Position numbers and translations under genes: made by a program. Below the pieces are notes generated by a model. The model was not told the origin of the DNA and did not search any database. It worked only from the letters and a program-made list of their open reading frames with translations. Positions 20,630-23,174 of a stretch of DNA of 64,000 nucleotides are shown piece after piece. Numbering within the stretch: position 1 is the stretch's first letter; every line of letters starts with the position of its first letter. Source of the stretch: Haladaptatus paucihalophilus DX253 (GTDB taxonomy: Archaea > Halobacteriota > Halobacteria > Halobacteriales > Haladaptataceae); NCBI RefSeq assembly GCF_000376445.1, contig NZ_AQXI01000001.1, forward strand, positions 62,001-126,000, written 5' to 3'.

Positions 20630-20911
20630 ATGCCCGTCCGCCCGCACGACCTCGAGTTAGTCGTTAGCCTCGGAATACTGCTCCTCAGCGTGGGGCTAGG
20701 GACGTTGACCTACCTGACGTGGCGACGCGAACGCGAGCGACGGTTGGCTATCGTCACCGTTGCGTACGTGCTGTTCGCCCTCCGAGGGCTCGCGGTCGTC
20801 CTCGAAGAGACGTTCTTGATGTCGGTACGGCCGGAGCTCATCGACCACCTCTCGTCGTTGTTCGTCCTGCTGGGTCTCCTGTTGTTCTTCGTGGCAATCG
20901 CACGGGACTGA
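20630..20911 (+). CDS. DUF7521-like three-helix membrane protein
   Basis: 93 residues with three hydrophobic segments (LVVSLGILLLSVGLGTLTYL, IVTVAYVLFALRGLAVVLEE and LFVLLGLLLFFVAIA) and a basic first loop (WRRERERR). It lies two bases before the winged-helix gene, so the two are co-translated. A similar pair lies at 61043-61659 with the order reversed. A membrane partner for the regulator is inferred from this repeated pairing. Confidence 0.75.
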   Translation: MPVRPHDLELVVSLGILLLSVGLGTLTYLTWRRERERRLAIVTVAYVLFALRGLAVVLEETFLMSVRPELIDHLSSLFVLLGLLLFFVAIARD

Positions 20912-20913
20912 AC

Positions 20914-21429
20914 ATGGACGAGCCCGAACTCGAATCACGGCGCGTCATCTTCGGCGAAATCCGAGAGACGCCGGGGATTCACTTCCGCGAACTGCTCCGG
21001 CGACACGAGTACGCACAGGGGACGATTCAGTACCATCTCCGATGGCTCGAAGACGAAGGACTCGTCGAATCGTCGGACGACGGTAACTTCACGCGCTACT
21101 ACCCGGCCCACTCGTTCGAAGCGGCGGACAAATCGACGATGAACGCGCTTCGCCGGACGTACTCGCGTCGAATTATCGCTCTTCTCGCGTCGGAGGAGCG
21201 ACTCAGTACCGCGGCCCTGAGCGAACGCGTCGGCAAGTCGCGCTCGACCGTCTCGTGGCACCTCTCTCGACTCCACGAGGAGGAAATCGTCGAAAAGGAA
21301 CGCGACGGGCGCACCGTGCTCTACTCGCTTCGGGACCCGGACCAGGTGATGCGCCTCTATGCGACCTATCAAGCGAGTTTCCGCGACCGTCTCCTCGATA
21401 AAGTGCTCGACCTGTGGGACGTCTACTGA
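20914..21429 (+). CDS. Tandem winged-helix transcription regulator
   Basis: 171 residues from ATG 20914. Two consecutive winged helices are visible: IRETPGIHFRELLRR then GTIQYHLRWLEDEGLVES (about 10-65), and RRIIALLASEERLSTAALSE then STVSWHLSRLHEEEIVEKE (about 85-145). A short C-terminal helical tail follows. No ligand domain is present. The 3' end overlaps the convergent membrane gene at 21423 by 7 bp. The apbE operon next door is a candidate target. Confidence 0.85.
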   Translation: MDEPELESRRVIFGEIRETPGIHFRELLRRHEYAQGTIQYHLRWLEDEGLVESSDDGNFTRYYPAHSFEAADKSTMNALRRTYSRRIIALLASEERLSTAALSERVGKSRSTVSWHLSRLHEEEIVEKERDGRTVLYSLRDPDQVMRLYATYQASFRDRLLDKVLDLWDVY

Positions 21430-21962
21430 GTCGGACGGGCCGCGCGGATTCCGCCGAACAGTTTCGAGACGAGCGCGACGCCCACGAAACCGACCGAGGC
21501 GGCGACGAGTTGCCCGAGCAGTCCCGTCATGTCGCTCCCGATAGCGACCGCGTGGATGGTCGCAAACGCGAACCCACCGTAGGCGAGGGCGTGAATCGCT
21601 TTCGGGTGCTCGAACCGACGCGGTTCGAGAAACCCCAACACGGCCACGACGACCAACACGACGGCGACGCCGCCGACGCCGACGCCCGCGATGAACAGGG
21701 GGAACGGATAGTTCGGCGCGGGGGCGATTCCGTCCACCACCAACCACGCGTCGATGGTCCCGACGACGGCGTGCAGGACCATCATACCGACCGCGAAGAC
21801 GGCCAGTTCGATGTGCGTCCGTAGCGATAGCCAGTGTATCGCGCCGAACCGCCGCTCCGTGAAGAACACGCCCGTCAACACGGTGAGCCAGAGCGCCGGA
21901 TAGAGCACCAGCGCCGACGCGCGGTCGAGGTACCAGAGCGCGAGGGTGACGACTTCGTTCAT
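21423..21962 (-). CDS. Ferric reductase-like membrane protein, probable heme b carrier
   Basis: 179 residues with about five transmembrane helices. Histidine pairs are placed as in ferric reductase/MsrQ-like cytochromes: LSLRTHIELAVFAVGMMVLHAV and HPKAIHALAYGGFAFATIHAVA. They could bind one or two hemes across the membrane. It is the last gene of an operon with apbE and a small exported Cys-containing protein, overlapping the latter by 4 bp. The neighbours suggest trans-membrane electron transfer to the outside. Heme binding is inferred from the spacing, not proven. Confidence 0.72.
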   Translation of the reverse strand: MNEVVTLALWYLDRASALVLYPALWLTVLTGVFFTERRFGAIHWLSLRTHIELAVFAVGMMVLHAVVGTIDAWLVVDGIAPAPNYPFPLFIAGVGVGGVAVVLVVVAVLGFLEPRRFEHPKAIHALAYGGFAFATIHAVAIGSDMTGLLGQLVAASVGFVGVALVSKLFGGIRAARPTQ

Positions 21963-22294
21963 GAGGCGCGCGTCGTGGTCACGACGGACTGACAGCCGCT
22001 CTGACAGGTCCCGGCGGCGTTCGTGTTGCCGCCGCCGCTGCCGCCACCGTACTCCCCCTCATCGTCTTCATCGTACTCGTGGTGCTCACCGTACTCGTCC
22101 TCGTGGCTCTCGGAGACCGCTCGCCCGCCGTCGGGCGGTTGATACTGCTGTGGATTGGTCGCTTGCGGCGAATGGTCGTTGCCCGTTCCTTGGTATGCCG
22201 TCCGGTAGGCCATGACTCCGGTCACACAGACGAGCGCGAGCACGACGACGGTCAGCGCGAGCAGCGTTCGGCGGCGTTTACCGGACGTGTTCAT
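21959..22294 (-). CDS. Small exported His/Asp/Cys-containing protein
   Basis: 111 residues. A signal anchor (RRRTLLALTVVVLALVCVTG) precedes an extracytoplasmic tail that is rich in His, Asp, Glu and Tyr (ESHEDEYGEHHEYDEDDEGE), then Gly, and ends with CQSGCQS (a CxxxC pair). This suggests metal or redox chemistry at the cell surface. The flavinylation consensus of ApbE substrates (S/T-G-A-T) is not present. It overlaps apbE by 17 bp and the membrane cytochrome-like gene by 4 bp, so all three are one operon. No family recognised. Confidence 0.68.
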   Translation of the reverse strand: MNTSGKRRRTLLALTVVVLALVCVTGVMAYRTAYQGTGNDHSPQATNPQQYQPPDGGRAVSESHEDEYGEHHEYDEDDEGEYGGGSGGGNTNAAGTCQSGCQSVVTTTRAS

Positions 22295-23174
22295 CGAATC
22301 CCTCCGTTTCGTGGAAGACGCCCTGATGGACGACCAACGCCTCCGCCCCGTCCCAGTCTTCGGCGAGTCGAATCGCGTCCTCGGGTCGGAGCGCGGCGAG
22401 CGTGGTGGCGAGCGCGTCGGCTTCCATGCAGTCTCGACGCGCGACGACCGTCACGAGGTCGTTGTGCGACCGGGTGCGTTCCTCCTTCGGATTGTAGATG
22501 TGCTCTCTCCCGTCGCGGTTGCGGCGGTAGCCGCCCGACGTGGCGACGTTCCACGGCGTCGAGAGCACGCGGAGATTCGTCTCGGTGCCGTACGGACTCT
22601 CGATGCCGACCGGTCCGGTCGGCCGTGCGATGTCGCCGCCGCCGTCGACGAATCCCCGGCGGCCCAGCCCCGAGAGTTCGGCGTGCGCCCGGTCCACGAT
22701 GTATCCCTTGGCGAGACCGTTGCAGTCGAGCGGTCCGTCGGTCGTCACGGTGTCACCATCGACCGCGACCGACGACGGGTCGAACGTCTCGGAGACGGTG
22801 GAACAGTCGCCGCGAATGTACGCCTTCAGTTCGTGTTCGATGGTTCCGTGATGGATATCGAAGACGCCGCCAGTCCGTTCGTAGTAGGCCAGCCCGCGGC
22901 GAACGATTCGTGCGACGTGGGCGTTCGTGACGCGCCCCGACCGATTCAGGCGGGCGACCTGGCTCGATTCGTCGAACGCGTCGAGTTGCCGTTCCAAGCG
23001 GAGCGCGGTGTCTTTCGCCCGCTCGCATGCCAGCTCCGCTCGGACGCCATCCGCGTGTATTCGAAAAGTCGTATCACAACAGTCGAACGACGCGGTGGCT
23101 TCGCCAACCGTCGCGTACAGTCGGTGTTTCGGTGTCGAATCCCCCAATCGGGAACGTATCCGAGGGCGATGCAT
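22278..23174 (-). CDS. apbE: FAD:protein FMN transferase (ApbE)
   Basis: 298 residues. ApbE attaches FMN covalently to Thr/Ser of target proteins. Visible motifs are ERQLDAFDESSQVARLN near the start, then CNGLAKGYIVDRA and VDGGGDIA (FAD and Mg binding), and TSGGYRRN (usual TSGxYxR). ADALATTLAAL at the end matches ADxxxTAL. No bacterial-type lipoprotein signal is visible, so it may act in the cytosol. It is the first gene of the three-gene operon; the target protein is not obvious nearby. Confidence 0.9.
   Translation of the reverse strand: MHRPRIRSRLGDSTPKHRLYATVGEATASFDCCDTTFRIHADGVRAELACERAKDTALRLERQLDAFDESSQVARLNRSGRVTNAHVARIVRRGLAYYERTGGVFDIHHGTIEHELKAYIRGDCSTVSETFDPSSVAVDGDTVTTDGPLDCNGLAKGYIVDRAHAELSGLGRRGFVDGGGDIARPTGPVGIESPYGTETNLRVLSTPWNVATSGGYRRNRDGREHIYNPKEERTRSHNDLVTVVARRDCMEADALATTLAALRPEDAIRLAEDWDGAEALVVHQGVFHETEGFDEHVR

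Follow-up and report, generated by a model that had tools for sequence, protein, structure and literature searches.

The target motif of ApbE flavin transferases, D-x-x-[S/T]-G-A-[S/T], ends in the Thr or Ser that is modified, and according to a review of these enzymes (PMC12052999) seven residues suffice and tags placed at a terminus perform best. The review also describes minor effects of replacing the motif Asp in one studied substrate, a halving of flavinylation upon exchange of Gly for Ala in another ApbE system, where Ser was less favoured than Thr, and an engineered flavin tag (Tong et al., 2021, in PMC12052999), a short terminal motif with Asp at -7 that is flavinylated by ApbE.

In the MsrQ-like flavinylation systems described by Meheust et al. 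(2021; PMC8238504), apbE stands beside the gene for a membrane protein of PF01794 type in which heme sites are predicted, and a transmembrane electron route to covalent FMN outside the cell was proposed. As described there, these clusters usually contain a gene for FMN_bind (PF04205), occur mainly in Actinobacteria and encode six-helix proteins, often with a NAD-binding domain; the underlying survey set aside genes lacking a signal peptide. The DUF4405 cytochromes associated with flavinylation (mSystems 2024; PMC11334425) are small four-His membrane proteins whose genes lie together with apbE and that of a flavinylated partner, and the systems described are bacterial, with a partner that is often a flavodoxin-type domain. 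In the ferric reductase domain superfamily, comprising NOX, FRE and short bacterial forms (Zhang et al., 2013; PMC3591440), four His recur at spacings of 14 and 13; those of NOX2 are His 101/115 and 209/222, and in the YedZ/STEAP signature Arg replaces the first heme His.

Here we compare these systems with a cassette of three genes found in the window, the whole stretch of 64,000 nucleotides of Haladaptatus paucihalophilus DX253 DNA that was analysed. With the MsrQ-like systems it shares apbE beside a PF01794-type membrane protein, predicted heme sites and a proposed electron route to external covalent FMN, and it is most likely an archaeal form of them with a new proposed class of substrate. 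In contrast to those systems, the cassette is archaeal, lacks FMN_bind and a NAD domain, has five predicted helices and an ApbE without a signal peptide, which the survey's filter would therefore have removed, and its proposed acceptor is the C-terminal residue of a very small TSP3 protein. The four-His spacing is common to the ferric reductase superfamily, whereas the cassette membrane protein has no dehydrogenase domain and five helices. It resembles the DUF4405 cytochromes in size, His number and gene setting, but DUF4405 is absent from the Pfam matches of the cassette membrane proteins. Unlike the engineered flavin tag, the cassette tail is natural, has its Asp two residues farther from the end and usually closes with Ser. 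The preliminary description had suggested a chain of a type not yet described in archaea, and indeed no description of the cassette was found in the open-access full text on flavinylation and ApbE in archaea (articles proper, supplements aside).

A three-gene apbE cassette of haloarchaea

The apbE and small-protein genes overlap by 17 bp (22278-22294), and the small-protein and membrane-protein genes by 4 bp (21959-21962). The same order of the three genes was found in 50 of the 53 apbE loci examined, namely the window and 52 others, with four divergent second-ApbE loci (L084-L087) left out of the count; the three loci dropped to reach 50 comprise one at a contig end (L049) and two with ApbE fragments (L082 and L083). 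RefSeq annotation of the Haloarcula sinaiiensis plasmid pHsi540 gives the order of the window cassette, reading hypothetical protein, FAD:protein FMN transferase, TSP3 repeat protein, hypothetical protein, convergent ArsR family protein and hypothetical protein. Because the arrangement is conserved in 50 complete cassettes among 53 loci and again on pHsi540, it is more than a product of chance, and the earlier proposal that the overlapping genes form one unit holds.

Table 1. Features of the cassette and its flank, in positions of the window.
Feature	Position	Strand	Basis or role
apbE, FAD:protein FMN transferase, 298 aa	22278..23174	-	PF02424 match
Small protein of 111 aa with a signal anchor; proposed flavin carrier	21959..22294	-	Relatives share its position and the 17-bp overlap
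C-terminal tail TTRAS (family consensus TTGAS-COOH); last Ser, proposed flavinylation site	21962..21976	-	Last five residues tallied over 50 cassettes
Membrane protein of 179 aa resembling the ferric reductase domain; five helices predicted	21423..21962	-	His spacing, sub-cut-off PF01794
His codons of the membrane protein: H50, H64, H124, H137	21813-21815, 21771-21773, 21591-21593, 21552-21554	-	Proposed ligands of two b hemes
Winged-helix regulator, 171 aa, convergent with the membrane-protein gene	20914..21429	+	PF24266, 74.2 bits
93-aa membrane protein, upstream of the regulator	20630..20911	+	Clustered in 50/50 loci; Pfam matches weak only

The identification of apbE made in the preliminary description is borne out by a PF02424 score of 118.3 bits, where the cut-off is 25.6, and solved ApbE structures match the protein. 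Its catalytic region contains the general-base His in an HxxDP-like motif, the Asp and Thr of ADALAT, and GGD. Residues H225, D253, A254, T257, G179, G180, D181 and K156 are invariant in all 50 family members; H225 and D253 we take, by motif and not by structure, to correspond to His257 and Asp285 of Vc_ApbE. Neither a signal peptide nor a hydrophobic segment was detected at the N-terminus of any of the 50 family members. The cassette enzyme is the sole ApbE found in the window genome.

ApbE relatives (E up to 1e-5) occur in 49 of 392 genomes of the order, spread over 24 of 95 genera. In the family to which the window genome belongs they occur in just 3 of 28 genomes, and the cassette is therefore patchy. 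A search with the membrane-protein alignment found 50 places in 46 of 384 haloarchaeal genomes, all 46 lying within the 49 ApbE genomes, so that in these searches the membrane protein never appeared outside the cassette; co-occurrence in other haloarchaea, which had been put forward as a check, is thus observed. The three ApbE genomes lacking the membrane protein are G339, with its locus at the end of a contig, and G143 and G180, which hold ApbE fragments. Against genome contigs, the single window membrane protein as query gave no match and the alignment query recovered 44 loci. Named loci belong to Haloarcula, Haloplanus, Halorubrum, Natrinema, Haloterrigena, Halobellus, Halorientalis, Haloferax, Natronomonas, Halorussus and others, with some loci plasmid-borne, and Haloferax denitrificans and Haloferax sulfurifontis are among the carriers of the cassette; among 72,556 plasmid records, 9 carry the membrane protein, named 'hypothetical protein' where annotated.

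Several loci depart from the single intact cassette. Haloterrigena sp. H1 has a frameshifted copy on contig7 (L144) and three other intact copies, and three cassettes each are present in G164 (L044-L046) and in Halorientalis marina (L114, L116 and L117, on plasmids), which suggests mobility. The ApbE-like fragments of G143 and G180 (L082 and L083) span approximately 120-130 aligned residues, the other cassette genes are absent there, and a nearby gene is, we presume from its sequence, heavy-metal P-type ATPase-like. Outside the order, weak homologues of the membrane protein occur in 13 genomes. Eight regions from other members of the phylum (L169-L176) encode ferric-reductase-like membrane proteins, one of them scoring 27.7 bits with PF01794; tblastn of the cassette proteins against these regions and six divergent-ApbE loci revealed no ApbE beside them.

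The small protein and its C-terminal tail

All 50 small proteins have a hydrophobic N-terminal segment, with a positive N-terminus in most. The typical relative continues through an N-terminal helix, a linker and a DYDGDG...CP...NGFQDxDGCPD repeat to the tail VVETTGAS. TSP_3 (PF02412) matches all 23 small proteins of alignment A4 (23 of 40) at E up to 1, that of L102 above the cut-off, and at 26.5 bits it also exceeds the cut-off in L032, from the same genus as the window. The window protein and that of L072 give no TSP_3 match in Pfam. The tail VV-x-T-T-x-A-S is kept in two lineages that lack the repeat, the window and L072/L141 (Halobiforma haloterrestris); since L032 still has TSP_3, the window form probably reflects a recent loss. 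The His/Cys-rich character emphasised in the preliminary description is real for the window copy, which has an Asp/Glu/His-rich stretch and a Cys pair (CQSGC) near its C-terminus, but it is not the conserved part of the protein, most relatives carrying TSP3 in that place.

What the family conserves is the extreme C-terminus. The last five residues of the 50 small proteins are TTGAS in 43, TTRAS in three (the window, L076 and L077) and TTHAS, TTGAT, TTGGS and NTGAS in one each, so that [S/T]GA[S/T]-COOH is the exact ending in 45 of 50 and the window itself deviates (TRAS). The 44 named loci of the genome collection, which overlap the set of 50, comprise 40 with TTGAS, three with TTRAS, all in Haloferax, and one frameshifted copy, these last four read by eye. 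None of 2691 other open reading frames of the same loci ends in [S/T]GA[S/T], in a scan whose filters dropped some true frames and counted 42 of the 50 small proteins. The motif was likewise not found in any of the 50 cassette membrane proteins, and the 18-nt DNA pattern of the tail has a single occurrence in the 4.3 Mb genome, at the window cassette. In TTRAS the window carries a variant form of a tail whose conservation shows only in the relatives. The earlier statement that the small protein has no flavinylation consensus is accurate for the window copy and fails for the family.

Because its extreme C-terminus in the family is the ApbE target motif, the small protein is the best candidate for the flavin carrier, and its earlier portrayal as an unflavinylated metal or redox peptide finds no support. 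No Pfam match to FMN_bind (PF04205) was obtained for it. Agreement with the published motif is partial, position -7 being Val or Ile in all 50 proteins instead of Asp; an Asp stands at -9 in 46 of 50, two residues farther out than in the motif, although not in the window. The Arg in place of Gly in the window tail and the mostly Ser acceptor count against the tail as a flavinylation site. In an AlphaFold model of a TSP3-bearing relative, a single helix is followed by a low-confidence tail whose last three residues have pLDDT <50, which would be compatible with an exposed tail. Changes in ApbE that track the replacement of the tail Gly by Arg or His amounted to two private positions in just four sequences from two lineages and were not usable.

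Given that the small-protein stop overlaps the membrane-protein start in 49 of 50 cassettes, the tail might be kept as a ribosome-binding or re-initiation signal for the downstream gene and not as a flavinylation site, and the Gly at -3 is indeed encoded by GGG in 39 of 50 cassettes, compared with 29% of Gly codons in these genes. This over-use makes some constraint at the DNA level likely, and such constraint may be part of the reason for tail conservation. As the main explanation, however, we consider re-initiation quite improbable. The last five residues are encoded by 22 different codon strings, a GGAG/GAGG string was flagged in just 8 of 50, the Gly codon is swapped for CGC, CAC or AGG while T-x-A-S is kept, and the last codon, whether TCG, TCC, TCA, TCT or ACG, always specifies Ser or Thr. 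Re-initiation would also make the agreement with the ApbE motif, directly beside apbE, a coincidence. The variety of codon strings, the Arg and His replacements and the varied Ser codons instead point to selection on the peptide.

A flavin carrier encoded elsewhere would compete with the small protein. ApbE substrates without an FMN_bind domain exist, as documented in PMC8238504, and our search was for FMN_bind and NqrB/RnfD, among substrate types that also include DUF2271, DUF3570, FMN_red and flavodoxin-type domains; the cassette enzyme could accordingly serve another protein, through an internal tag or another domain elsewhere, leaving the small and membrane proteins as an independent redox pair. 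Against such a division stand the one-to-one co-occurrence and fixed overlaps of the cassette genes and the outcome of the searches. No FMN_bind protein was matched in the window genome, and NqrB/RnfD was neither found there nor above cut-off in any of 49 genomes. FMN_bind occurs in 3 of 48 genomes with a cassette or ApbE fragment, each time with a second, divergent ApbE of its own roughly 2 kb away, so that no FMN_bind target for the cassette ApbE was found in 45 of the 48 relatives or in the window genome. We therefore give little credence to another target. The preliminary description had named, as what would overturn it, an ApbE serving only a remote NqrC-like protein beside unconserved neighbours; the findings are the opposite, since searches of the genome gave neither FMN_bind nor NqrB/RnfD and the neighbours are strictly conserved. 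The divergent ApbE genes themselves (L084-L087, L177 and L178, in G198, G295 and G372) lie about 2 kb from an open frame of 765-804 aa with FMN_bind and represent, in one haloarchaeal genus, a flavinylation system distinct from the cassette.

The membrane protein and the neighbouring genes

The histidine pairs that the preliminary description had thought suited to heme prove to be a family trait. All 50 cassette membrane proteins have four His, in two helices, arranged as H-x13-H and H-x12-H (spacings of 14 and 13), which in the window copy are H50/H64 and H124/H137. The first heme His is kept in 50 of 50, and the Arg signature of YedZ/MsrQ and STEAP is absent. PF01794 (Ferric_reduct) matches residues 17-134 of the window protein at 16.6 bits, below the cut-off of 28, and is the Pfam family matched by most members, 28 of 37 at E up to 1. 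Of the membrane-protein alignments, A1 comprised 23 of the 50 sequences and A3 comprised 37, made up of the window and 36 of 40. An AlphaFold2 model from 37 sequences has five helices (pLDDT 76.9). The top Foldseek row is the NOX5 membrane domain, with a weak E of 0.43 and a probability of 0.82, and STEAP and DUOX are among the top rows; in VIA-align NOX5 reaches Z 11.3, but unrelated designed helical bundles reach 12.3. Lys/Arg counts in the loops are 1.88, 0.04, 3.48, 0.82 and 1.18, with basic residues concentrated in the predicted inner loops, and these charges fit the orientation of the superfamily, with H50 and H124 inside. From the His pattern we infer a di-heme-type protein in which the four His would ligate two b hemes.

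The convergent regulator combines HTH_HVO_0163_N with an ArsR-like HTH; its cluster is present, at the equivalent position, in 37 of 50 loci, and a regulator is also annotated on pHsi540. The small membrane protein next to it (93-95 aa), clustered in 50 of 50 loci, weakly resembles DUF2157, DUF5985 and DUF7521. This pair (20630-21429), tied to the cassette in relatives, is possibly a membrane-coupled sensor. Upstream of apbE, most loci carry a further gene, X (46 of 50 by BLAST cluster, 44 of 50 by regular expression), whose anchored product bears the motif APTPN-x-x-FTPAV and a long tail of Asp, Glu and His residues. This poly-Asp/Glu/His/Tyr tail is variable, its repeat number differing between strains (e.g., L036, L040 and L072). 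In the window and L032 another gene, presumably acs-like judging from its sequence, takes the place of X, and a search for X elsewhere in the window genome was negative, although the same search also missed the diverged X of G349.

Across the 50 loci no donor, acceptor, enzyme or transporter gene was found conserved beside the cassette. Together with the constant 93-95-aa membrane protein and the regulator at its side, the lack of a conserved enzyme or transporter lends some appeal to a cassette that acts as a redox or metal sensor feeding the ArsR-like regulator and its membrane partner, and not as a respiratory or metal-reducing chain. We nevertheless regard a sensor as unlikely, for it would need less than a two-heme conduit and a covalent flavin, and the regulator may simply control the cassette.

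A proposed electron route to the cell surface

We consider it likely that the cassette encodes a dedicated flavin-tail carrier and a di-heme conduit which together act as a surface electron carrier; flavinylation and heme binding would follow from the family tail and the His spacing, and the final acceptor is conjectural. The surface electron-transfer chain envisaged in the preliminary description appears likely. ApbE would move FMN from FAD onto the hydroxyl of the C-terminal Ser of the small protein, which, judging from its charges, would be held in the membrane by its one N-terminal helix with the C-terminus outside. In most relatives the TSP3 calcium-type repeat with its two Cys, as recognised by Pfam, would space the flavin tail from the membrane, and in the window copy an acidic, His-rich linker would take the place of the repeat. 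The four invariant His of the short ferric-reductase-domain protein would coordinate a stacked pair of b hemes; electrons from a donor on the inner side, either quinol or a cytosolic partner, would pass to the outer heme and on to the flavin tail. From there they would reach an external acceptor, perhaps a metal ion, and the gene X protein of most relatives may hold metal or form a surface platform.

The topology of this route contains a mismatch, as ApbE looks cytosolic in 50 of 50 cassettes, yet the tail of the small protein is predicted to lie outside. The flavin could be attached before export, ApbE could leave the cell by some route, or the tail could stay inside. Extracytosolic flavinylation in bacteria needs FAD export. 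More tentatively, we propose as one possibility that FMN is loaded in the cytosol onto the last residue and that the tail is then exported, yielding a one-residue flavin wire beside the di-heme conduit; because ApbE lacks an export signal in all 50 cassettes while the tail is predicted outside, FAD export would then be bypassed.

The cassette supplies a concrete candidate substrate for orphan archaeal ApbE enzymes, one belonging to a proposed class in which the C-terminus itself is the modified residue and no flavin-binding domain is present. It also poses the puzzle of how a flavin outside the cell is served by a transferase in the cytosol, and the proposal can be tested directly in cassette-bearing Haloferax species. 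A compact cytochrome-flavin chain is predicted in 24 haloarchaeal genera and, if true, would represent a route, not previously described in archaea, by which electrons reach the cell surface.
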